From NCBI GenBank assembly GCA_946629525.1, contig CAMOXU010000021.1:1-34339 (forward strand): a DNA stretch of 34,339 nt, given 5' to 3'. The notes under the pieces are model-generated. The model was not told where the DNA came from. It saw only the letters and a program-made list of their open reading frames with translations, and searched no databases. This document shows, piece by piece, positions 1,358 to 23,001 of this stretch. The translations under genes were made by a program, and so were the position numbers. Position 1 is the stretch's first letter; every line of letters starts with the position of its first letter. Origin of the DNA: an uncultured Clostridia bacterium. Its GTDB lineage: Bacteria; Bacillota; Clostridia; Lachnospirales; Lachnospiraceae.

Positions 1358-1390
1358 ATTAAGGGGAAGACAGTTGAAAGGACTGGAATT

Positions 1391-2350
1391 ATGAACTATA
1401 TTGTGCTGGATCTTGAATGGAATCAATGCCCGTACGGCAAGGCGAGGGAGGAGGAAAGACTCCCTTTTGAGATTGTCGAGATCGGTGCCGTCAAGATGAA
1501 CGAACAGAAGGAGATCATCGATACTTTTCATATTCTTGTTAAGCCGATCGTCTACAGGCGGCTGCATTACAGGACGCAGGAGGTCATCACGCTCTCGATG
1601 GAGGACCTTCAGGAAAGAGGTCTGATCTTTCCGGAGGCAGTCGGAAAGTTCCTGATCTGGTGCGGACAGGGAGACGACGAATTCTGCTTCTGCACCTGGG
1701 GGACGACGGATCTCACGGAGCTGCAGCGGAACATGGCCTTCTATTATATGGAAGATCTCCTGCCGGGCCCGATCTATTATGAAGATGTTCAGAAACTCTT
1801 CGCGATCACATTCGAGACGAGAAAGGACAGACGCGCGCTCGGGTATGCGGTCGACTTTCTGAAAATAGAAGATAACGGTGAGTTCCATCAGGCACTCGAC
1901 GACGCGGTCTATACCGCGCGCGTGCTCTCCTTCATCCCGGACGAGATCATCGACAGGAACTATTCCATAGACTGCTATCAGAATCCCAGGACCCGCGAGG
2001 AGGAGATCCGGGTCCGCTATGACACTTATGAGAAGTTCATCTCCAGAGAGTTTGCCACGAAGGAAGATATCATGGCAGATAAGGAGGTCACTGCGCTCCG
2101 CTGCTTTGCCTGCGGGAGGAACGCGAAGAAGAAGCTTCGGTGGTTCTCCGACAACGGGCGGAATTATTTCGCGGTCGGATACTGCGAGGAGCACGGCTAC
2201 GTGAAAGGAAAGATCCGCGTGCGGCGCGCCGTGGACGGTGCATTTTTCGCGATCCGGACGACCAAGCTGATCGGAGAGTCGGAGGTCGATAAGATCCGCG
2301 GAAAGCAGCTCTCGCTCCGTGCAAAGAGACAGAAGAAAGGCAGAAAATAA
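1391..2350 (+). CDS. 3'-5' exonuclease, DEDDh (DnaQ/RNase T/KapD-like) family
   Basis: A 319-residue protein. Its N-terminal half is a DEDDh exonuclease fold that removes nucleotides from 3' ends of DNA or RNA using two metal ions. Exo I is YIVLDLEWNQ (residues 3-12), the middle Asp lies in the TDLTELQRN segment near residues 110-120, and Exo III is HQALDDAVYTARVL with the His and last Asp about 180-185. The C-terminal ~90 residues carry a CFACG pair plus CEEHG (Cys/His, possibly zinc-binding) and a very basic tail, suggesting nucleic-acid contact. The ATG at 1391 is chosen because AAAGGA (1376-1381) precedes it by 9 bases. The longer in-frame opening from 1244 covers only structured leader with no ribosome binding site. 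Substrate (RNA or DNA) cannot be told from sequence. Confidence 0.85.
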   Translation: MNYIVLDLEWNQCPYGKAREEERLPFEIVEIGAVKMNEQKEIIDTFHILVKPIVYRRLHYRTQEVITLSMEDLQERGLIFPEAVGKFLIWCGQGDDEFCFCTWGTTDLTELQRNMAFYYMEDLLPGPIYYEDVQKLFAITFETRKDRRALGYAVDFLKIEDNGEFHQALDDAVYTARVLSFIPDEIIDRNYSIDCYQNPRTREEEIRVRYDTYEKFISREFATKEDIMADKEVTALRCFACGRNAKKKLRWFSDNGRNYFAVGYCEEHGYVKGKIRVRRAVDGAFFAIRTTKLIGESEVDKIRGKQLSLRAKRQKKGRK

Positions 2351-2422
2351 TCTTCTATTATCGTCTGGCCTGAGTAGGGATGATGGTTGAGACATTTCTT
2401 TGTCTGAATATTAACATAATAG

Positions 2423-2463
2423 AGTCCTCAGGGATTCCGGACCGGGATTCCTGAGGACTTTGG
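2423..2463. terminator. Hairpin terminator between the convergent exonuclease and zinc-ribbon genes
   Basis: AGTCCTCAGG (2423-2432) pairs perfectly with CCTGAGGACT (2450-2459), and the stem continues inward to about 16 bp with two wobbles around a GGACC loop. The T-tract is short. It lies between two converging genes and may serve both. Confidence 0.6.
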
Positions 2464-2466
2464 CGT

Positions 2467-2982
2467 TTAATCTGACGGAATTGTAAATCGCTTGTAAGTC
2501 TTTGTCACTCCGCTATCTTTCCATATCAAGATAAGTTTGGAATCAGTAAGATTCGCATATATTAAAGGGTTGAACAGTTTTGAAATTTTCCGGTTTGGAA
2601 TTGCACTTTCTGTGATAGTATCCCAAGAATAATCATCAAAAACAACATATTCACAGATGTCCGGTCTTTCTGCATACTTTATTCTGTTATCTTCTTCATA
2701 TATTCTTTTCACGTATTTGTGTTCATCGAAAAATATGAATGCTCCACACTTCGGACATTTCCATGCTTTCATGATTGATTCTTTAAAATCAGATTCTATT
2801 GTATCTGTTTGATAAAGAGCAGGTGAAGAACTTCCATTTATATATTGTTTATTTCTGGAATCAAAACGAGTGGATATAATTTTATTCCAATCTTTCTTCT
2901 TAATAAATATATACTCTATTCCTTCTGGTTCACCGTGATAGTGGATCCCGGCTTTACACTTAATGCATTGAGTTGATGCCAT
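2467..2982 (-). CDS. Hypothetical protein with two CxxC (zinc-ribbon-like) pairs
   Basis: A 171-residue protein of no family I recognise. The N-terminus has CIKC (about residues 6-9), and a second pair lies in WKCPKCGAF near residue 77; together they could form one four-Cys zinc site. The rest is mixed charged/aromatic with no signal peptide or membrane segment, so it is probably cytoplasmic. The ATG at 2982 is chosen over upstream in-frame ATGs because GGAGGG sits 9 bases before it. That site lies inside the end of the preceding nuclease gene, whose stop is 1 bp away, so translation is probably coupled. By position directly after a toxin-like nuclease it could be an immunity partner, but that is inference from gene order only. 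Confidence 0.65.
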   Translation of the reverse strand: MASTQCIKCKAGIHYHGEPEGIEYIFIKKKDWNKIISTRFDSRNKQYINGSSSPALYQTDTIESDFKESIMKAWKCPKCGAFIFFDEHKYVKRIYEEDNRIKYAERPDICEYVVFDDYSWDTITESAIPNRKISKLFNPLIYANLTDSKLILIWKDSGVTKTYKRFTIPSD

Positions 2983-2983
2983 G

Positions 2984-3442
2984 CTATTTCCCTCCGATTC
3001 TATACATCTTGCCATTATGCATGAGCCAGACTTCACCTTTTACGTATCCCTGCGACTTTGCCTTTCTGTAACCTCCAAACACAGTTTTATATGCTGTTTT
3101 GATATTTGGATATTTTGACAATATCACGACCCTTCCATCACGATGAGAATCTGAAGGATATCTGTAATTATCTGCCGAAACTTGCTCAAACCCCTCCTTG
3201 ATATTATTAGCTACTTTGTTTGTAGAGGTAGAGGACATTCCCTTCACCTCTGTATGTATACCGCCCACAGACAGATCAGCTCTTTGTTGGTTAGATTTCT
3301 CCTGTAAAAAAGCAACATATTCTCCTTGGTTAATATAATACTCTCCTACCGTAATCGCGTTTTTGTCCTTAACTTTACGGCCGCCGGTATCATAGTATAC
3401 TTTATCTCTGCTTCGGCCGCTGCTGCCACCATATCCACCCAT
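2984..3442 (-). CDS. Small PD-(D/E)XK-type nuclease resembling CdiA C-terminal tRNase toxins
   Basis: A 152-residue protein. After a Gly/Ser/Arg-rich N-terminus (residues 1-12) comes a compact domain with the pattern E34 ... D56 ... E65-V-K67, matching the E-D-ExK arrangement of PD-(D/E)XK nucleases. The surrounding text (NQGEYVAFLQE, HTEVKGMSS, a closing GEVWLMHNGKMYRIG) reads like the restriction-endonuclease-fold tRNase domains at CdiA/polymorphic-toxin C-termini. Here the domain stands alone, without secretion or delivery modules. The ATG at 3442 is preceded by AGGAGG at 8-base spacing and overlaps the upstream stop (TAATG). Being between a DUF4417 gene and a zinc-ribbon gene suggests one transcript. 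Nuclease activity and the tRNA substrate are inferred from the family, not shown. Confidence 0.65.
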   Translation of the reverse strand: MGGYGGSSGRSRDKVYYDTGGRKVKDKNAITVGEYYINQGEYVAFLQEKSNQQRADLSVGGIHTEVKGMSSTSTNKVANNIKEGFEQVSADNYRYPSDSHRDGRVVILSKYPNIKTAYKTVFGGYRKAKSQGYVKGEVWLMHNGKMYRIGGK

Positions 3443-4116
3443 TACGCACCCCTCCTTTTTCTCCATATCTGGCTATAGCTGGGGATGTGTATTATCCGAA
3501 CATTAGGGTATTTGGTATCGAGCCATGCAGGGCTATTTCCGCAGACTACAAGTGCAAAAGGCTGAATCGTATAAATCAAAGCTTCTACGCCGCCTGCAAA
3601 AAGTCTCCTTGCTTCGGGATCGTTCAACGTCCCATTTGTTGTTATTGCGACCGTAGAATGTACAGGAAGTCCATCGAAGCACCATTTCCATGTTCTCTCA
3701 GACCCAAAGCCTGCTGTTGGTATCAGAGGAACGTTTGCTTTTTGGATGGCATATGCCAGAACCCGATTACGGTAACAGTTCCAGATTAACGCATCATCCG
3801 TATAATCTCTGTAAAGGCTGAAGTCTGTCGATATAAAGCCTTTAGCTCCTTGAATCAGTGGCAAGTATCGGTATAAGCCTGACCATAACCGAGAAAACTG
3901 GTAATCATCACAAAAACAATGGTACCACCAATCCCAGGGGTTCTTCGATGACAATAGATAGTTGAAACTGGCTGCGGGCCCTTCTGGAATAAGCTTTTCC
4001 TTCTGCAACTGCGGAAATCCATACTTTCCTACTCTTTTTGCACCAGAAGCATAGATCTCCCCGAGAAAATCATACTGCAGATAATCCGGATTCCGGCGCA
4101 TATATTGTGCTGGCAT
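3442..4116 (-). CDS. DUF4417 domain-containing protein
   Basis: A 224-residue protein with the signatures I associate with DUF4417, a family of unknown function common in Firmicutes and phages. Seen are YGFPQLQ (32-38), an aromatic stretch WYHCFCDDYQF (64-74), FISTDFSLYRDY (94-105), a WNCYRNR block, VPLIPTAGFG with a following WCFDGLP, and a late ALVVCGNSPAW. No signal peptide or membrane helix is evident. The ATG at 4116 has AAAGGTG upstream. The gene ends in a TAATG overlap with the nuclease gene, a strong sign of co-translation. No catalytic motif is recognisable, so no function is proposed. The link to a nuclease is notable because DUF4417 genes are often reported as orphans. Confidence 0.75.
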   Translation of the reverse strand: MPAQYMRRNPDYLQYDFLGEIYASGAKRVGKYGFPQLQKEKLIPEGPAASFNYLLSSKNPWDWWYHCFCDDYQFSRLWSGLYRYLPLIQGAKGFISTDFSLYRDYTDDALIWNCYRNRVLAYAIQKANVPLIPTAGFGSERTWKWCFDGLPVHSTVAITTNGTLNDPEARRLFAGGVEALIYTIQPFALVVCGNSPAWLDTKYPNVRIIHIPSYSQIWRKRRGA

Positions 4117-4131
4117 ACATCAACACCTTTC

Positions 4132-4285
4132 ACTGACCAGGAAATGAGGTGATGGGTGGTCAGATTTCATAAATATTTCACCTCATCCCATGGAAAAGTG
4201 TGATATACTTCTCTTGCCACAGAGTTTGATATATGTCACACTCGCCATGGAAGCACATTTTGCTATTACCGTAGTAAAATGTGCT
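4132..4285. repeat. Cluster of inverted repeats between the ImmA and DUF4417 genes
   Basis: Four palindromes fill this 173-bp gap. CTGACCA (4132-4138) pairs with TGGTCAG (4157-4163). ATGAGGTGA (4144-4152) pairs with TCACCTCAT (4178-4186) and overlaps the first, so they are mutually exclusive. GTGTGATATA (4199) pairs imperfectly with TATATGTCACAC (4230). AGCACATTTT (4252-4261) pairs with AAAATGTGCT (4276-4285). The last has a T-rich flank on the plus strand only. They could end or attenuate the upstream transcript, or be operators for an internal promoter. Confidence 0.55.
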
Positions 4286-4289
4286 TTCT

Positions 4290-5111
4290 TTATAGGAAAT
4301 CGAATAAGGACATTTGAGCATGCTCCTCTTCGAATTTCTTTTTTGTTATATAAAAACCGGTCTTCGTCAGACGATACCTGATGGCTTCTTTGGACATATT
4401 GTAAATATTCTTCAGTTCTTCCGGAATTGTATGATAAGATAACTCCCAGGAGCCCGGATCTGTATCAATAACCATCTGTTGTCCGTTAACCCCATAACGT
4501 TTGAATAATTCGGGTACCGCTATTTTTAGGCTTTTTCTGGGCAGTGCCATCGTAACCGCAAAAGTGGTTGCCTGCCATTCTCTCCATGACTCTTCAATAG
4601 AAGAATATGGTTTTTGAACTTCTTCAATCTTACTTCTGCTGCAACAGATTTTATTATACTTAAACCCAGCCAAAGTCATCTGGTGAGGGTCTTCCTGCAG
4701 AAGCGGGCCGTGAATCCAAATATGACCTCCTTCATGAAGACCGGTGATGTTCTCCTGGATAACACGATTCCCTTCGACAAGAGAGAGGTCCAGTACTACT
4801 GTATTCGGTCCGTAGTCCCGATAACTCTTTCGCTTATTTTCTTTGTCAAAGACAGCCAGTCTCTGATTAGAGAAAATTGCACAACCGAGAATATCCCCTT
4901 CATCTCCTGAAGTGTAAATATGCTGATAGTCCAGTGATACTCCCAGATATCCTTCCAGAAAGTCGTCATATTCGATTGCTCCGGGTTCTGTCAGCAGTTC
5001 GGGCTTATAGTCCTGCAGAAGCATTTCTGTAAGCGACTCTATATCCAAATAAGACAGATATATCCCGCCGGTTTTTGTACGATGAAATCTATTGTAATCA
5101 AATTGAATCAT
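4290..5111 (-). CDS. ImmA/IrrE-family metallopeptidase
   Basis: A 273-residue soluble protein with the zinc peptidase motif HEGGH (126-130) followed by E178-W-Q-A-T-T-F-A, the ExxAxxFA helix that supplies the third ligand in ImmA/IrrE proteins. The family cleaves partner XRE repressors to relieve repression, as in ICEBs1 ImmA-ImmR, or radiation-response regulators in Deinococcus. The start overlaps the stop of the XRE gene by 4 bp (ATGA), so the two are translationally coupled, as expected for a protease-repressor pair. Length is slightly above that of ImmA, with extra N-terminal sequence. It probably controls the islet in response to DNA damage or another signal; the substrate being the adjacent XRE protein is inference. 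Confidence 0.85.
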   Translation of the reverse strand: MIQFDYNRFHRTKTGGIYLSYLDIESLTEMLLQDYKPELLTEPGAIEYDDFLEGYLGVSLDYQHIYTSGDEGDILGCAIFSNQRLAVFDKENKRKSYRDYGPNTVVLDLSLVEGNRVIQENITGLHEGGHIWIHGPLLQEDPHQMTLAGFKYNKICCSRSKIEEVQKPYSSIEESWREWQATTFAVTMALPRKSLKIAVPELFKRYGVNGQQMVIDTDPGSWELSYHTIPEELKNIYNMSKEAIRYRLTKTGFYITKKKFEEEHAQMSLFDFL

Positions 5112-5494
5112 TGTTCATCCTCCATTTTGCGAATCAGTTCCTTCCAGAGCTCAACACTCCCCTTCCCCTGGTTGACCATCCGAAGAGCTTTCCTCGCATA
5201 ATCACCCTCTTCTGTGTACATGATCGTATCCGCAATGTCCTGTGAGACCGAATCGCTATCACGTGCCGCCAAATCATACATTTCTGAACGTTCTTCGTCG
5301 GATAATTCAAGTAACTTGCAGAACAACTCGATTCTATCTGCAGGAAATGGTCTCTTGCGATTGTTCTCTACATCACTCAGATAGGTAAGGGCAACCCCTA
5401 ACTTTTCAGCCATCTTCTTCAGAGTAAGCCTTGGTTGGTGTGCCAACCTTTTTTCCTTGATAAAACTACCAAACGATTGTGTCTTTTTTTTCAA
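5108..5494 (-). CDS. XRE-family helix-turn-helix transcriptional regulator
   Basis: A 128-residue protein with a Cro/CI-type helix-turn-helix at about residues 22-48 (TLKKMAEKLGVALTYLSDVENNRK), then an acidic helical C-terminus with no enzymatic signature. It starts at TTG 5494: AGGGAG lies 6 bases upstream and there is no alternative ATG nearby. Its promoter has consensus -35 and -10 elements, with a palindrome that begins at the -10 and runs downstream. That layout fits autorepression. It forms a pair with the following ImmA-like peptidase through a 4-bp overlap and is the likely controller of the whole minus-strand islet. Confidence 0.9.
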   Translation of the reverse strand: MKKKTQSFGSFIKEKRLAHQPRLTLKKMAEKLGVALTYLSDVENNRKRPFPADRIELFCKLLELSDEERSEMYDLAARDSDSVSQDIADTIMYTEEGDYARKALRMVNQGKGSVELWKELIRKMEDEQ

Positions 5495-5514
5495 TTTTTT
5501 CTCCCTTACATGAT

Positions 5515-5533
5515 TTACACTGATTTGGTGTAA
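5515..5533. promoter_or_regulatory. Palindromic operator at the XRE promoter
   Basis: TTACAC-7 bp-GTGTAA is a perfect dyad. One arm touches the -10 hexamer and the rest covers the transcription start region, so a bound repressor would block RNA polymerase. The XRE protein encoded just downstream is the obvious candidate ligand (inference). Confidence 0.65.
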
Positions 5534-5561
5534 TTATAGTATAATGATGTTGGCCTGTCAA
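5533..5561 (-). promoter_or_regulatory. Consensus sigma-A promoter of the XRE-ImmA islet
   Basis: On the minus strand TTGACA (5556-5561) and TATAAT (5533-5538) are both perfect consensus, separated by exactly 17 bp. The transcript would begin near 5526 and read through XRE and ImmA, possibly the three downstream genes. Confidence 0.85.
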
Positions 5562-5685
5562 GAATGTACTGGATTAGTTTCAACTTGATAGAGCTGAGCG
5601 TTTCCACCTGACCTTTGTGATTGAGATAGTTACTGTGTTGCGAAATTCACTGGGCTGTACACGTCTGGAAGGCCGGGGGTTCTTC

Positions 5686-5715
5686 TTGACAATCTGCGGC
5701 GCTACCACGTATAAT
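5686..5715 (+). promoter_or_regulatory. Sigma-A promoter of ileS
   Basis: TTGACA (5686-5691) and TATAAT (5710-5715) with an 18-bp spacer. The predicted leader to the ATG is only about 40 nt, too short for the T-box riboswitch that often controls ileS in Firmicutes, and no T-box core sequence is visible. Confidence 0.8.
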
Positions 5716-5762
5716 GACAGTTTGTATAGGGCAGACCTGACGAGAAAAGGAGCCAGAGGAGT

Positions 5763-8700
5763 ATGTATAAAAAAGTAGAAACAGACATGAATTTTGTTGA
5801 GCGGGAGAAAGAGACCGCCAAATTCTGGAAGGACAACGACATTTTCCAGAAAAGCATCAAGCAGAGAGAGGGCAATCCTACTTACATGTTCTTTGACGGG
5901 CCGCCGACCGCGAACGGTAAGCCGCACATCGGCCATGTTCTGACGCGCGTCATCAAGGACATGATTCCGCGTTATCATGCCATGAAGGGTGAGTACGTTC
6001 CGCGTAAAGCCGGATGGGATACGCACGGCCTTCCCGTCGAGATCGAGGTCGAGAAGATCATCGGAATCGAGGGCAAGGAGGCGATCGAGGAGTACGGTGT
6101 CGAGCCGTTCATCGAGAAGTGCAAGGAATCCGTGTGGAAGTACGAAGGCATGTGGAGAGAATTCTCCGACATCGTAGGATTCTGGGCGGATATGGATAAT
6201 CCGTATGTCACTTATCACGATGATTTTATCGAGTCCGAGTGGTGGGCACTGAAGCAGATCTTCGACAGAGATCTTCTGTACAAGGGATATAAAGTCGTCC
6301 CGTACTGCCCGTCCTGCGGAACGCCGCTCTCGAGCCACGAAGTGGCACAGGGCTACAAGACACTGAAGGAAAAGTCGGCGGTCGTACGCTTCAAGGCGAA
6401 GGACGGAGATTTTTATTTCCTTGCATGGACGACGACCCCGTGGACACTTCCGTCCAACACCGCGCTCTGCGTAAATCCGCATGAGTCCTATGTGAAGGTC
6501 GTTGACGGAGAGTATACCTATATTATGGCGGAAGCGCTGGTCGAGAAGGTCCTCGGCGAGGGGAAGGAGATCCTCGAGCGCTATACGGGAACCGACCTCG
6601 AAGGCATGGAGTACGAGCCGCTCTACGACTGCGCGAGAGAAGCTGCGGAGAAGCAGGGCAAGAAAGCGCACTTCGTGACGGTCGACGAGTACGTCACCAT
6701 GACAGACGGTACCGGCATCGTTCATATCGCTCCGGCATTCGGTGAGGACGACTCTCGAATCGGACGCAATTATGACCTTCCGCTCCTCAAGTTCGTTGAC
6801 GAGCAGGGCAGAATGACACCGGATACGCCGTTCGCCGGCTACCGCTGCAAGCCTACCCAGAAGGAAGTGAAAGAAGGCGCGGTGAGCGCGGATCCCGAGA
6901 TCCTGAAGGACCTCAAAGAGCGCGGACTTCTCGCTGCGGCTCCGAAGTTCGAGCATGACTATCCGCACTGCTGGAGATGCGGAACTCCGCTCATCTACTA
7001 TGCGCGTGAGTCCTGGTTCATCCGCATGACGGCCGTCAAGGATGACCTTGTCGCGAACAACAAGAAGATCAACTGGATCCCGAAGAGCATCGGAGAAGGC
7101 CGTTTCGGCGACTGGCTGGAGAACATCCAGGACTGGGCGCTCTCCCGCGACCGCTACTGGGGAACTCCGCTTCCGGTATGGATCTGTGACGACTGTGGAA
7201 AGAAACACGCGATCGGATCCAAGAAGGAACTGAAGGAAATGGCAGTAAACTGCCCGGACGAGATCGAGCTGCACAAGCCGTTCATCGACCGTGTCGAGCT
7301 CAAGTGCCCGTGCTGCGGCGGGACCATGCACCGCGTACCGGAAGTCATCGACTGCTGGTTCGATTCGGGTTCCATGCCGTTCGCACAGCACCATTATCCG
7401 TTCGAGAATCAGGAGCTTTTCAAGGCTCAGTTCCCGGCTTCCTTCATTTCCGAGGCGGTCGATCAGACGAGAGGATGGTTCTATTCGCTGCATGCGATCT
7501 CGACGCTCATTTTCAACAAGCCGTGCTTTGAAAATGTCATCGTACTCGGCCTTGTCCAGGACGAGAACGGACAGAAGATGAGCAAGTCCAAGGGCAACGC
7601 GGTGGACCCGATGGAAGCCCTTGCGAAATATGGTGCGGACGCGATCCGCTGGTACTTCATCGTGAACTCCGCTCCGTGGCTCCCGAGCCGTTTCTACGGC
7701 AAGGCGGTCATGGAAGGCCAGAGAAAGTTCCTCGGGACCCTCTGGAATACATACGCATTCTACGTACTGTATGCGAACATTGACAATTTCAATCCGCTCG
7801 AGCATGAACTCGAGTATGACAAGCTTGCCGTCATCGACAAGTGGATCCTGTCTCGTCTCAACTCGACGATCAAGACCGTGGACGCCAACATGGCTTCCTA
7901 CAAGATCCCCGAGTCGGGCAAGGCTCTGCAGGCATTTACCGATGATCTCTCGAACTGGTACGTCAGAAGAAGCCGTACCCGTTTCTGGGCAAAGGGCATG
8001 GAGCAGGATAAGGTCAACGCTTACATGACGCTGTACACAGCGCTTGTTACGCTGTCGAAGCTCGCTGCACCGATGATCCCGTTCATGACGGAGGAGATCT
8101 ACCAGAATCTTGTCCGCGGAATCGATGAAAATGCGCCGGAGAGCATCCACCTGACAGATTATCCGGTGGCGGATGAGAGCATGATCGATCCGGAGCTCGA
8201 GGAGAACATGGACCATGTCCTGAAGATCGTCGTGCTCGGACGTGCTGCCAGAAATGAGAGCGGCATCAAGAACCGCCAGCCGATCGCCCGCATGATGGTC
8301 AAGGCACCGTATGAGATCCCGGAATTCTATCAGGAGATCATCAGGGAGGAGCTGAACCTCAAGAAGGTCGAGATGACGGACGATGCGGACAGCTTCATCA
8401 GCTACACATTCAAGCCGCAGCTCAAGACCGTGGGACCGAAATTCGGAAAGCTCGTAGGCGGAATCCGCAAGGCGCTCTCCGAGATCAACGGCAGCGCGGC
8501 CATGAAAGAGCTCAATGAGCAGGGAATTCTTACGCTTGACATAAACGGTACCGAGGCCGTATTATCGAGGGACGATCTTCTGATCGATATGGCGCAGAGC
8601 GAAGGCTTTGAGACGCAGTCCGACGGAAAAGTGACGGTAGTCCTCGACAAGACACTGACTCCGGAGCTTCTCGAGGAAGGATTTGTGCGGGAGCTGATCT

Positions 8701-19840: not shown

Positions 19841-20381
19841 AATAGTTCTCAGCCCTTCTCTCGAAATACGCCTGCGGATGCGCACAGACCGGACAGACAT
19901 CCGGTGCTTCCTTGCCGACGACAATCGCGCCGCAGTTCCTGCATTTCCATACAGTATTCTCATCATCGCCCTCGAAGGTCTTGCCTGCCTTCAGGTTCTC
20001 GAGAATCTTGCGATAGCGCTCTTCGTGCTTTTCTTCAACGCCTGCGACCAGAAGGAACTTCTTTGCCAGCTCGCTGAAACCTTCGGCCTCGGCTTCCTCA
20101 GCCATGCGCTTATACATATCTGTCCACTCTTCGTTTTCTCCCTCTGCAGCTGCAAGAAGGTTCTCCTCGAGCGTGCCGATTCCGCCAAGCTCCTTGAACC
20201 ACATCTTTGCGTGTTCTTTCTCCTGATCCGCTGTCTCAAGGAAGATCGCCGCGATCTGCTCATAGCCGGCCTTCTTTGCCTGAGAAGCAAAGTAGGTGTA
20301 CTTGTTGCGGGCCTGGGATTCGCCTGCGAATGCCTGTTTGAGGTTTTCTTCTGTCTTTGTTCCTGCGTACTTGTTAGCCAT
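19839..20381 (-). CDS. rbr: Rubrerythrin
   Basis: Reduces hydrogen peroxide in anaerobes using a di-iron site fed by a rubredoxin centre. The 180-residue protein has the erythrin four-helix bundle with the ligand motifs GESQARNKY (E20 region), [10 protein letters not shown] (ExxxH) and [12 protein letters not shown], then the C-terminal rubredoxin knuckles CRNCG and CPVCAHPQ. This is the classic domain order. The ATG at 20381 has AAAGGAGA upstream. It is monocistronic behind the promoter at 20442-20471, which closely resembles that of the second rubrerythrin at 25554. It marks the host as an oxygen-sensitive anaerobe. Confidence 0.95.
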
Positions 20382-20441
20382 ATATCAATATCTCCTTTCG
20401 AAACAGATGATAACTTTAAAAGATATTCTCCATCTGTACTG

Positions 20442-20471
20442 ACTATAGCATGGCAGGAAGCGGTTAGACAA
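20442..20471 (-). promoter_or_regulatory. Promoter of rubrerythrin, shared type with the second rubrerythrin
   Basis: TTGTCT (20466-20471), 18-bp spacer, TATAGT (20442-20447) on the minus strand. The 42-bp segment 20438-20479 matches the equivalent segment of the other rubrerythrin at about 29 of 42 positions by eye, including ATTGTYTAACC and ATGCTA, with the same spacer length. Confidence 0.65.
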
Positions 20472-20509
20472 TACAAAACAAGATTTAATCTCAATAAATG
20501 ATGGCAGAG

Positions 20510-20790
20510 TTTGTTTCTGCAACCGAATCGGGTAATAAATTGTCCTTGCTTAGTTACTGTGGCCCATTACTGTTAACAGAGAAATAGTGCGAGAACTGAA
20601 GTCTATAATCAGAAAGGTGTCGTTATAGAACGACAAGAGCAGAGCCTTTGGGCAAAAAAACTTGATGTCTGATTGCGGAGTGATATACTAAATTTAGATG
20701 AAAATATTATAGAATTGTTGAGACGATCTCCTGTTCCTGATGCTTAATAATAAATAATAGTTTATAAGAGCGGAGTGTTATCGTAAGCAT
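20510..20790. other. AT-rich stretch without an intact gene, upstream of the cas2 relic
   Basis: All frames are broken by stops. Short readable fragments exist on the plus strand, such as LRSDILNLDENIIELL ending at the TAA near 20745, but I do not recognise them. By position in a type I-C locus this would be where cas1 lay, so it may be decayed cas sequence; I could not match it to Cas1. Confidence 0.3.
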
Positions 20791-20796
20791 AAAGCA

Positions 20797-21030
20797 CTTT
20801 GAGCGTTTCGGGATTTATGAAATTGTAAGCTCCATTAATATTCAGCTCGTTGACTTCGAGTGTAACCTTGATGCGACAATGCTGGCTGCAGTCCGTAAAA
20901 GGCGTTTGGAGCTTATTAATGAAAGGGAAGGCGGTCTGAAATATTTATAATCTGGGAAATAAGTATACAAACAAAATTGAGCATTATGGCACAAAAAACT
21001 TATGACCTGGTAGGAGAATGTTTTTTTTGA
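20797..21030 (+). pseudogene. cas2: Decayed cas2 (CRISPR adaptation nuclease), multiple frameshifts
   Basis: Translated pieces in successive frames spell a Cas2. One piece reads INIQLVDFECNLDATMLAAV then KRRLELINEREGGLK (20834-20941), matching the Cas2 strand/helix usually read as VQ-SVFECNLD...LLELINE-DSLR. After a shift near 20942 the frame reads IYNLGNKYTNKIEHYGTKN (20943-20999). After another shift at 21000 it reads YDLVGECFF and stops at 21030. Upstream, NCKLH in a third frame fits the preceding helix. No start codon or N-terminal strand is left. The type I-C order (cas1-cas2-leader-repeats) agrees with the array 150 bp downstream. The gene cannot make a functional protein. Confidence 0.75.
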
Positions 21031-21179
21031 GTGCGAAGTGGAGGCTGTTGGAATTAGGCAGGCTGGTTCGCACCCGAAATATAGGAATTTTACTTAAATC
21101 ATCTCATACCTAAGGGTATAGATGTCGTAGAATATGCCGGATATTGAACCGGATGGGGATTTATTAGGCGTATTTTGCG
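21031..21179 (+). promoter_or_regulatory. Probable CRISPR leader relic
   Basis: GTGCGAA (just after the cas2 stop) pairs with TTCGCAC about 35 bases on, an element I associate with type I-C leaders, followed by AT-rich sequence up to the first repeat. Inferred from position and composition. Confidence 0.5.
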
Positions 21180-21348
21180 GTCGCTCCCCATGCAGGGGAG
21201 CGTGGATTGAAATATAAAAAGTGTCTGCAGGCATTCGTTGAGAATTTGTCGCTCCCGTGTAGGGGAGCGTGGATTAAAATTTCAGAACGGACAGAAATGT
21301 CGCGAACAGTAATCGTCGCTCTCCGCGTAGGGGAACATAAGATTAGAT
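21180..21348 (+). CRISPR. Degenerate type I-C-like CRISPR array, 3 repeats and 2 spacers
   Basis: Repeat 1 (21180-21213) has the form GTCGCTCCCC...GGGGAGCG followed by TGGATTGAAAT, the well-known type I-C repeat type. Repeat 2 (21248-21280) differs at a few positions and ends TGGATTAAAAT. Repeat 3 (21315-21348) keeps the GTCGCT start and the GGGGA but its 3' half has decayed. The spacers, 21214-21247 and 21281-21314, are both 34 nt. Regular spacing and repeat palindromes rule out chance. The worn repeats and the broken cas2 show the array is no longer adapting. Confidence 0.88.
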
Positions 21349-21447
21349 TAATACCGGCCCTGAAATAAAGGGGACTAAAGATTACGCAGGCATAGAGATA
21401 AGTAGGGTGACAATACGCATAGCAAGTGTCGACAAGGGGAGATTGTG

Positions 21448-22239
21448 ATGAAGAAAGTGATAAGTATCTTAACAATAGCAGGAGTGAGTTTGCTTGCAGG
21501 CTGCGGCCATGAACATCAATGGACGGAAGCGACCTGTACCGAACCGAAGACATGTACAGAGTGCGGTGCAACAGAAGGCGAGCCGTATGGTCACAAATGG
21601 ATAGAAGCGACTTGCTCAGAGGCTAAGCACTGTTCTGAGTGCGGACAGAAAGAGGGCGAGCCTTTGGCACATACATGGGAGGAAGCAACATGTACGAAGG
21701 CAAAGACTTGCAGTGTATGCGGATATGCTGATGGAGAAGCGTTAGGGCATGACTGGATGGAAGCAACTCATCAGGCTCCTAAAACATGTAAGCGTTGTGG
21801 AGAGACCGAAGGGGATGTATTGCTTTACGAGGTGCCGGCGGGTTTTACTACGGACTATGAGTTTGGAGAGTTTTCAAGATTTAATAGTTTTGCCAGTGAG
21901 AACGGGCTTGGAGGAACGATGATATGGGTGGATGGGTCGTATGATGCGATCTCTAAACTCGATCTATCATCTGATATGGGACAAAGTATGAATGCGTATG
22001 TGTGTACATTTGTCGATCAGGACAATCATAAATGGTTCATACAGATAGATTTGGACTATTATACTGAGATTGACAAATACGAAGAATTATGTGGTCATTC
22101 TTTGTGCGTTACCGGGGAATATACAGGCTACTCGCAGTTGTATGAAATGCCTGCATTTGTAGTAGAGAAAATATTTGATAAGAATACCGGCAATATCATT
22201 ATCCCAACATGGTATAGTGAATATGCCAGTGGCAGATAG
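21448..22239 (+). CDS. Lipoprotein with four Cys-rich (HxWxEATC...CxxCG) repeats
   Basis: A 263-residue exported lipoprotein. The signal has lysines, a hydrophobic core and the lipobox LAGC with Cys19 as the lipidation site. Residues 23-126 are four tandem 26-residue repeats of the form HxWxEATC-x5-CxxCGxxEGExxGH. The fourth has His in place of the first Cys. The His/Cys spacing suggests a small metal-binding or zinc-ribbon-like fold; such repeats occur in surface proteins of Lachnospiraceae. The C-terminal ~135 residues look like a beta-rich domain (MIWVDGSYD, HKWFIQIDLDYY, VTGEYTGYSQ) that I do not recognise. GGGGAG lies 7 bases before the ATG at 21448; the GTG directly before it is less likely. 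Its A+T bias is stronger than that of the backbone genes. Confidence 0.8.
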   Translation: MKKVISILTIAGVSLLAGCGHEHQWTEATCTEPKTCTECGATEGEPYGHKWIEATCSEAKHCSECGQKEGEPLAHTWEEATCTKAKTCSVCGYADGEALGHDWMEATHQAPKTCKRCGETEGDVLLYEVPAGFTTDYEFGEFSRFNSFASENGLGGTMIWVDGSYDAISKLDLSSDMGQSMNAYVCTFVDQDNHKWFIQIDLDYYTEIDKYEELCGHSLCVTGEYTGYSQLYEMPAFVVEKIFDKNTGNIIIPTWYSEYASGR

Positions 22240-22297
22240 AGTAGTATTATGAACGCCCGGCATCTTGCTGCAAAGGGTATGATTATGGGAGGAGAAA

Positions 22298-22723
22298 ATG
22301 TCTTTTATTGGAACCTTGCACGAGATTTCTTTTTATGGACTTATTGTTTCGATATGGGGACTTATTTGTAAGAAAATCACCATACAACAATTAATATCAG
22401 CGGCAACTCATCCGGATGGATTTAAGATGATCTTTTTATGTTATTTATTTTGGGCGTCTGTTCTTTTTATTCCTTTGGCTGTAATAGGAGCATTTGTTAC
22501 TAAGTATGTAGATGATGGAGAAGGATTAAGCTTTTCTTCTGATAAAATAGTGGTTATTATTTTTGCACATATTGGCGAAGAACTGTTAGGTCTTATATTA
22601 ACACCTATCTGGTTCATAAAGGATGCTGTTACAAAAGATTTTGAGTTTTGGAAAGTAGTTGACTATATAGTTTACGTTATTTTATTGATATTTATCATTT
22701 TTGGAATATTGGTATTGAAATAA
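22298..22723 (+). CDS. Small hypothetical membrane protein
   Basis: A 141-residue protein with about three to four hydrophobic helices: FYGLIVSIWGLI, IFLCYLFWASVLFIPLAVIGAF, IVVIIFAHIGEELLGLILTPIWF and IVYVILLIFIIFGILVL. There is no family I recognise. GGGAGGAG lies just before the ATG. It follows the lipoprotein by 58 bp on the same strand and ends at a strong terminator, so the two may be one transcript. Its high A+T content matches the accessory stretch and suggests it arrived with it. Confidence 0.7.
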   Translation: MSFIGTLHEISFYGLIVSIWGLICKKITIQQLISAATHPDGFKMIFLCYLFWASVLFIPLAVIGAFVTKYVDDGEGLSFSSDKIVVIIFAHIGEELLGLILTPIWFIKDAVTKDFEFWKVVDYIVYVILLIFIIFGILVLK

Positions 22724-22749
22724 GCTGCTAATCAGATGGATCTTTCTCG

Positions 22750-22787
22750 AACCGACTATCTTATGCCAGGATAGTCGGTTTTTTATT
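22750..22787 (+). terminator. Intrinsic terminator of the lipoprotein/membrane-protein unit
   Basis: AACCGACTATC (22750-22760) pairs perfectly with GATAGTCGGTT (22770-22780), followed by TTTTATTG. Confidence 0.9.
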
Positions 22788-22848
22788 GTACCGATAAAAA
22801 GCATCAAAGAGGTAATTTTGGGAAAATATTAAAAAAATAAAAAACCTG

Positions 22849-22877
22849 TTGACAGGCAAATGCATATATGATATTTT
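22849..22877 (+). promoter_or_regulatory. Promoter of the padR operon
   Basis: TTGACA (22849-22854), 17 bp, TATTTT (22872-22877). It implies a leader of about 275 nt before padR, filled by the repeat array and further sequence. It could be autoregulated by PadR. Confidence 0.65.
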
Positions 22878-23001
22878 TACTACGACAGACATAGTACGAC
22901 AGACAAAGCAACGACAGGTGAAGGAACGACAGACAAAGTAACGTCAGTCGTAGGAATGCCAGTCGTAGTAAAGTGCGACACAGGTATGCCAATCCGAAGC
23001 C
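22878..23001 (+). repeat. 15-bp tandem repeat array with inverted halves
   Basis: About eight units of 15 bp. Four read ACGACAGACAAAGTA or close variants (22882-22940), then units such as ACGTCAGTCGTAGGA and ATGCCAGTCGTAGTA follow. The second half is inverted relative to the first: TACTACGAC (22878-22886) is the exact reverse complement of GTCGTAGTA (22962-22970). In RNA the two halves could fold back on each other. There is an open frame through it (TTDKA/TTGEG/TTDKV) but no start codon with a ribosome binding site. Confidence 0.7.

Follow-up and report, generated by a model that had tools for sequence, protein, structure and literature searches.

A minus-strand islet beside ileS in a Lachnospiraceae genome is a likely allele of a DUF4417-headed polymorphic toxin-immunity cassette

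What is the function of five genes between an exonuclease gene and ileS in an uncultured Clostridia bacterium of the Lachnospiraceae (assembly GCA_946629525.1, contig CAMOXU010000021.1)? We analyzed a stretch of 34,339 nucleotides from this genome, hereafter the window, in which a minus-strand islet at positions 2467-5561 encodes an XRE repressor, an ImmA-like metallopeptidase, a DUF4417 protein, a small nuclease-like protein, and a protein with cysteine (Cys) motifs. A first-pass annotation had seen here a protease-relieved repressor that controls a lone toxin-like nuclease and a DUF4417 protein. We consider it likely that the islet is one allele of a polymorphic toxin-immunity cassette headed by DUF4417. 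We read the cassette proper as DUF4417, a leader-bearing toxin, and an immunity gene, and the XRE/ImmA pair as a replaceable upstream module. The cassette genes are:

3442-4116, minus strand: DUF4417 protein, head gene of the cassette (PF14386, E 6.7e-38)
2984-3442, minus strand: candidate toxin, in which a probable PD-(D/E)XK nuclease domain stands behind the glycine-rich leader MGGYGGSSGR (from alignment and structure model)
2467-2982, minus strand: Cys-motif (zinc-ribbon-like) protein, probable immunity protein (a relative lies 3' of the nuclease in 12 of 13 loci)

The nuclease ATG at 3442 sits within the DUF4417 stop (TAATG) and opens a frame of 152 amino acids (aa). An alternative, longer reading from 3466 gives 160 aa, and we prefer 3442 because relatives keep the MGGYGG start. 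The Cys-motif gene can likewise be read longer, from a GTG at 3036. All five genes share one strand, and the 4-bp ATGA overlap of the XRE and ImmA-like genes, the TAATG junction, and the 1-bp spacing between nuclease and Cys-motif gene were confirmed in the sequence as first annotated.

Our reading is carried by what lies behind DUF4417 genes elsewhere. Of 299 genomes from the window's family, 43 have DUF4417 (about one in seven; 40 over the curated cut-off), as do 9 of 398 genomes drawn from the phylum (8 over the cut-off). At 30 family-level loci (L004-L033), a candidate toxin open reading frame (ORF) directly follows DUF4417 in 26, and an ORF directly follows at 5 of 6 further loci from the phylum search. 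Nearly all of these candidate toxins (24 of 26) start with M-G, and an equal number are followed by a further ORF of 60-220 aa, which in L015 bears a leader itself. The starts are glycine-rich leaders such as MGGRGASSG, MGAGFHGGFG, MGAGQSDLY, MGRGRGGY, and MGGYGGSSG. Because our choice of start codons favoured ATG and glycine, we used other same-strand neighbour pairs, read with the same start choice, as a control: by a simple criterion, a glycine-rich leader was present in 36 of 43 DUF4417 pairs versus 4 of 112 control pairs. The control pairs were taken from the window and 18 extended loci, which were picked partly for having ImmA or Fic and whose contexts were read by eye. The 43 pairs, which include related loci, are those of 49 loci (window included; L087, without a DUF4417 hit, excluded) minus six, namely L011, L021, and L027 (no ORF) and L009, L060, and L086 (spurious short ORFs).

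Behind these leaders the rest of the protein, the body, is interchangeable. Among 19 locus pairs whose DUF4417 proteins are at least 70% identical, the bodies are less than 25% identical in 9 and at least 40% identical in 9, and mean leader identity is 85%. In L022 and L023, for instance, DUF4417 is 83% identical, the leader 92%, and the body 3%, and in general DUF4417 genes that are 70-83% identical can have unrelated bodies behind similar leaders. Leader identity also follows DUF4417 identity among the 813 pairs with bodies below 25% (rho = 0.26; none of 2000 permutations was as high). Since unrelated bodies behind similar leaders are a hallmark of polymorphic toxins, we regard the DUF4417 cassettes as polymorphic-toxin-like: they have a constant N-terminus and interchangeable C-terminal bodies, the constant part being only the leader of about 10-14 aa.

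Some of the bodies and partners belong to families expected of such systems. Toxin-type bodies include LHH (L006, L007), Gln_amidase (L005), EndoU (L033), and DUF6883 (one member); that of L022 matches Ntox28 just under the cut-off, and that of L083 matches Cys_rich_CPCC, which is not clearly a toxin. Partner ORFs match SUKH beside LHH, CdiI_3 beside Ntox28, and, once, DUF7674. Immunity-like ORFs also occur without an upstream toxin (L011, L104, three in L105, L059, and a second, paralogous Cys-motif copy in L062 and L063). Polymorphic toxin systems as described in the available text of PMC3482391 combine interchangeable toxin domains of common families with adjacent immunity genes of the SUKH or contact-dependent inhibition type and with toxin-less immunity-like genes; the DUF4417 cassettes resemble them in this, with putative immunity genes. 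The DUF4417 cassettes differ from them in that the linked proteins are short (112-260 aa) with no known trafficking domain found, and in that they have a fixed upstream partner protein and, at part of the loci, XRE/ImmA or Fic.

Several observations weigh against this reading. Four of the 30 family-level loci lacked a directly downstream ORF by script (L009, L011, L021, and L027), though in L021 an ORF does follow, behind a DUF4417 gene broken by a stop. The loci are not phylogenetically independent, and the modest correlation between leader and DUF4417 may partly reflect a recombination breakpoint. In Pfam, at most 7 of 39 members match toxin-type families (counting DUF6883 and the CdiA_C match of L079, described below) and one matches Cys_rich_CPCC; at most 4 of 36 downstream partners match any family, so that most bodies and partners match none that is known. 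The toxin set comprised 37 of 45 ORFs plus those of the window and L079, and the partner set 34 of 39 ORFs plus the same two. NCBIfam returned no toxin family among the members (one stray match, 4e-4). At E 0.001, none of the 39 members had a trafficking or secretion domain in Pfam, and the Firmicutes ORFs measure only 112-260 aa. The window's own nuclease allele is rare, with matches in 2 of 299 genomes at the family level and in 6 of 392 at the order level, none of the 30 family-level loci has its nuclease or Cys-motif family, and a phage copy (L080) and L004 have no immunity ORF.

Three further arrangements were seen around these loci. In L109, a toxin-like ORF (2104-2843; MGAGFHGGFG leader, HELNH motif, a SprT-like match below the cut-off) and a small partner lie upstream, not downstream, of DUF4417, and the order in L027 looks similar by eye. 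On an Enterocloster bolteae plasmid (L081, 3905-5374), the protein encoded behind DUF4417 has 260 aa, contains GGRGASSG internally, and matches no Pfam family. L086 and L087 hold divergent DUF4417-like domains in longer proteins (that of L087 has 342 aa and lies below the Pfam cut-off), and no leader ORF was found behind the DUF4417-like gene of L086.

Does the window's allele itself recur as a unit? Using an alignment built from the window nuclease plus a fragment, we scanned 84,980 species, each represented by one genome, and found relatives at 13 loci. DUF4417 lies directly upstream in 12 of these (broken in L060, with a short reading in L066), the exception being L061, and a Cys-motif gene lies downstream in 12, the exception being L057, at a contig end. 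The order DUF4417, nuclease, Cys-motif gene recurs across differently named clostridial lineages. A survey of this kind had been suggested with the first-pass annotation, and the outcome named there as refuting, that the three distal genes never co-occur elsewhere, does not hold. One locus, in the uncultured Lachnospiraceae bacterium RUG13128 (L056), is a near-identical copy of the islet; L061 is degraded to an XRE gene, remnants of ImmA and nuclease, and an intact Cys-motif gene; and L057/L058 and L062/L063 are near-duplicates. A search at the order level, in which the 6 matches named above were obtained, added one locus (G1010/L078) with the gene order Fic, DUF4417, nuclease, Cys-motif gene, and a weak hit in a prophage (L079). 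We dropped the reading of a lone nuclease, since the Cys-motif gene downstream likely encodes its immunity partner. Many other interchangeable ORFs can take the place of this nuclease behind DUF4417.

The window nuclease is probably a PD-(D/E)XK toxin, as judged from its alignment and its predicted structure. Residues D64, E73, and K75 (160-aa numbering, E73-V-K75) are invariant in all 10 aligned members, among which the nearest full-length relatives are 53-59% identical to the window protein. The best structure model is alpha/beta with a pLDDT (predicted local distance difference test) of 78, the five models ranging from 59 to 78. In Pfam, the window protein has no match better than E 0.16; other members match PD-(D/E)XK-type families weakly (of 10 members, AHJR-like in 5, NOV_C in 4, PDDEXK_4 in 1), and the unrelated Sol_i_2 (0.0017) scores equally well. 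Searching the Protein Data Bank (PDB) with a profile of the nuclease alignment matched nothing, and the L079 ORF gave three weak matches there (E 0.15 or worse), which we treat as chance. The nuclease had also been called CdiA-like. That name fits a distant relative: the L079 ORF, itself a weak hit in our search (E 8.2e-4), matches CdiA_C (PF18451) over the cut-off at 5.8e-8, and an 82-aa Cys-motif ORF comes after it, so that by its profile matches L079 is a putative bridge from the window nuclease to known toxins. The name does not fit the window protein, which has no PF18451 match and, unlike CdiA_C nucleases, does not belong to a large CdiA polypeptide. A separate protein upstream of the L079 ORF has a weak MuF match (5.6e-4, below the cut-off).

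The Cys-motif protein is, from its conserved position, probably the immunity partner of the nuclease. The Cys motifs are what make it zinc-ribbon-like; no Pfam profile reached its cut-off. Searching 391 genomes of the class recovered the window's own gene and one weak hit. Neither this protein nor the nuclease (or a member of its branch B) had relatives in the phages, plasmids, or viral contigs searched. In L058 (2310-3635), a second pair stands directly behind the nuclease/Cys-motif pair, possibly as a tandem cassette: an ORF at 2917-3255 matches the toxin set by BLAST, and a small ORF at 3252-3635 lies next to it.

The upstream part of the islet consists of the following features:

5561-5533, minus strand: promoter TTGACA-17-TATAAT, 12 of 12 consensus positions (promoter scan)
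5533-5515, minus strand: perfect inverted repeat TTACAC-N7-GTGTAA abutting the -10 element, likely the XRE operator
5108-5494, minus strand: XRE repressor with TTG start (PF13560, HTH_31, and PF01381, HTH_3, over cut-off)
4290-5111, minus strand: ImmA/IrrE-like metallopeptidase (HEGGH motif; PF06114 E 0.056, below cut-off)
4117-4289, minus strand: 173-bp gap with inverted repeats at 4251-4286, 4197-4242, and 4137-4193, a possible control region of the toxin part

The consensus promoter and abutting operator of the first-pass annotation are thus present as sequences. The scan found 9 promoter-like sites in the window versus 9.0 in shuffles, and only two with 12 of 12 positions, namely that of the islet and one before ileS. 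The inverted repeat has no other match in the window even when two mismatches are allowed (0.36 expected). No sigma-70-type site of at least 9 of 12 positions was listed by the scan in the 173-bp gap, and an Rfam search of the window gave zero matches. XRE and DUF4417 are what they were annotated to be, and the ImmA-like call stands on the HEGGH motif and on its best phage match, which is 40% identical and matches PF06114 at 9.6e-7, the window protein itself remaining under that cut-off. In phage PV036459, the XRE protein is 52% identical to that of the window and lies one gene from the ImmA relative; because the phage ImmA relative adjoins a related XRE and both match their Pfam families, we regard the switch as one of phage type. 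XRE-ImmA (ImmR/ImmA) switches operate in integrative and conjugative elements and phages. The islet resembles them in the overlap of a helix-turn-helix repressor gene with an HExxH protein gene, and differs in that the module stands upstream of a toxin cassette.

At other loci the upstream module varies. Among the 13 nuclease loci, XRE with ImmA precedes the cassette in L056, L064, and L065, a fused XRE-ImmA in L062 and L063, and Fic in L057, L058, and L068, with neither seen in L059, L060, L066, and L067. At the 30 family-level loci an ImmA motif lies upstream in 12 and Fic in 2, neither being seen in 16. These calls of ImmA and Fic are by motif, only some confirmed by Pfam, and XRE genes were identified by eye. 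Wherever else ImmA or Fic was called and a gap to DUF4417 was recorded (21 loci), that gap measures 127-401 bp. XRE/ImmA is thus probably an exchangeable module, one of at least two: it recurs beside DUF4417 cassettes, several of them between ordinary chromosomal genes as read by eye and not always in a larger element, and it is no fixed part of the unit.

From these features we infer how the islet might work. XRE would repress its own promoter through the repeat at 5515-5533, perhaps along with the downstream toxin unit. Upon stress or DNA damage, activated ImmA would inactivate XRE and so relieve repression. DUF4417 would then be made together with the adjoining 152-aa toxin, whose glycine-rich leader it may recognise. 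The nuclease would act as a toxin through its PD-(D/E)XK body, possibly against other cells, and the Cys-motif protein would protect the producer by neutralising it. Body and immunity gene would be swapped as a pair, with DUF4417 and the leader staying constant in front of them.

The islet also behaves as a discrete piece of DNA. Its GC content is 0.33-0.45 versus about 0.51-0.58 in the flanks, in agreement with its annotation as AT-rich. When 42 same-genus genomes were searched with window positions 2100-6100, 38 gave a match to some part, in most cases ileS. The whole stretch is present in two, namely the window's own and G332 (99% identical). In G319, window positions 1362-2352 align at 89% and 5673-7797 at 93%. 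Because only 216 bp lie between these flanks there, versus 3.3 kb in the window, we regard the islet as a presence/absence insertion. The site between exonuclease and ileS looks variable. In several same-genus genomes the place of the islet is taken by one long ORF of about 900-1200 aa, which may encode a surface protein or an autolysin (L045, 1304-4156; L046, 1380-4127; L050, 1218-4862). We dropped the idea that the islet is a remnant of a larger integrative element, as by eye no phage or integrase gene was recognised among the window ORFs. Outside the islet the window reads, likewise by eye, as ordinary chromosome, with genes such as those for glycogen phosphorylase, methionyl-tRNA synthetase, and branching enzyme. 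A second lower-GC stretch (0.33-0.49) lies at 20250-22900 and contains a lipoprotein-like ORF (21445-22239) rich in CxxCG-type repeats.

DUF4417 is also common in phages. By tblastn it occurs in 474 records of phages and 5 of plasmids; scanning viral contigs with the window DUF4417, by a tool that finds close relatives only, returned none. We examined two of the 474 phage records, plus the streptococcal phage MissD. In mycobacteriophage EvilGenius, DUF4417 (9.5e-64) overlaps an ADP-ribosyltransferase (4.1e-22) with a long glycine-rich N-terminal leader, and in Gordonia phage Anon an annotated metalloprotease behind DUF4417, with no Pfam family, starts MTGGGTGGSSGGG. In MissD, DUF4417 overlaps an MGGRGASSG protein and adjoins terminase genes. 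The MissD copy has no immunity ORF and related chromosomal ORFs (L018, L020, L082) have one, a difference one would predict if a chromosomal copy has to keep its living producer safe. By eye, L108 lies within a prophage, among its head-tail genes, L097 has phage lysis-type genes as neighbours, and L092, L095, L096, L099, L101, and L106 lie between ordinary chromosomal genes. A close parallel is with the MuF toxins of temperate phages, which in the available text of PMC5576092 combine a variable toxin with a small downstream ORF in the DNA-packaging neighbourhood of Firmicutes temperate phages; the streptococcal DUF4417 pair likewise adjoins terminase genes. The DUF4417 cassettes differ from MuF toxins: DUF4417 is encoded by a gene of its own, the leader is short and glycine-rich, none of the 39 ORFs scanned in Pfam has a MuF domain at E 0.001, and some copies, the window's included, lie away from phage genes.

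These settings bear on other explanations, not all of which exclude a toxin-immunity cassette. The one that survives best, although we think it rather unlikely, is an intracellular anti-phage abortive infection module in which DUF4417 would be a sensor or decoy, the nuclease would kill the infected cell, the Cys-motif protein would be an ordinary antitoxin, and toxin diversity would reflect escape from phage counter-measures. The missing trafficking domains, the phage-type switch, the many phage records with DUF4417, and the chromosomal position of several islets would all suit such a module. However, PADLOC 2023 models match none of the nuclease, DUF4417, ImmA, and Cys-motif proteins and only XRE, with five models (HTH_VI 4e-7, capH 2e-4, and three weaker including BrxC 0.0046); the SUKH and CdiI_3 partners and the toxin-less immunity-like genes fit competition between cells; and phages themselves carry DUF4417 with a leader ORF. 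Less probable again is a domesticated remnant of prophage cargo, retained by chance or addiction with no present delivery. In phages and prophages (e.g. L108), DUF4417 and leader ORFs do have terminase or head-tail genes as neighbours, and decayed copies exist (L053/L061, L060, and, with a stop within DUF4417, L021 and L085), but the islet's frames are intact, its nuclease retains the 53-59% identity to its nearest full-length relatives, and chromosomal copies have a downstream partner and XRE/ImmA or Fic, unlike the streptococcal phage copy. Least probable is a plain type II toxin-antitoxin pair of nuclease and Cys-motif protein with unrelated neighbours, which the 1-bp spacing of two small genes would suit, but which DUF4417 directly upstream in 12 of 13 relatives and leaders that co-vary with DUF4417 argue against.

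Returning to the toxin-immunity cassette, what might DUF4417 contribute? Its predicted fold is of alternating beta/alpha type (pLDDT 78), and a profile search of PDB with the DUF4417 alignment returned only reovirus lambda-2 (E about 0.04), which we treat as chance. Some phage records annotate DUF4417 genes as nuclease, and the window protein matches PHROG 940, which carries that label. Because only the C-terminal half of that profile is matched, a fused ParB part may be the source of the label; by these annotations, an enzymatic activity of DUF4417 itself is possible. The hypothesis we favour is a leader-recognising carrier or chaperone, as suggested by the constant position of DUF4417, the co-variation with the leader, and the phage locations. 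More tentatively still, and with no great confidence, DUF4417 might load glycine-rich-leader toxins onto phage-type particles or another exporter, chromosomal cassettes leaving with induced prophages under ImmA control.

We found no description of a DUF4417/leader-toxin/partner arrangement in the titles and abstract openings of the open-licence literature, an absence that is not proof, and the cassette, whose layout the first-pass annotation did not connect with a named defence or toxin system, is apparently undescribed. DUF4417 appears in a table of PMC5478533, and a table of streptococcal phage genes shows a DUF4417 gene overlapping the next gene near terminase (PMC8066415). For phage ParB-DUF4417 proteins, the available part of PMC12704722 presents DUF4417 purely as a domain of unknown function within a fusion, with no adjoining toxin gene; they share the domain with the islet, whose DUF4417 does have an adjoining candidate toxin gene, and L005 is such a fusion followed by the Gln_amidase-type ORF.

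Together, these observations give a testable role to DUF4417, a domain of unknown function that is widespread in phage records and in the window's family, and the ORF pairs behind DUF4417 genes offer a way to find new toxin and immunity families. Trafficking modes of polymorphic toxins have been counted as 'at least eight' (PMC3482391). If the proposed loading by DUF4417 is true, it would be a mode beyond the known ones, common to Firmicutes chromosomes and actinobacteriophages, and should the leader serve DUF4417 as an address tag, the cassettes would represent a new delivery route for antibacterial proteins.

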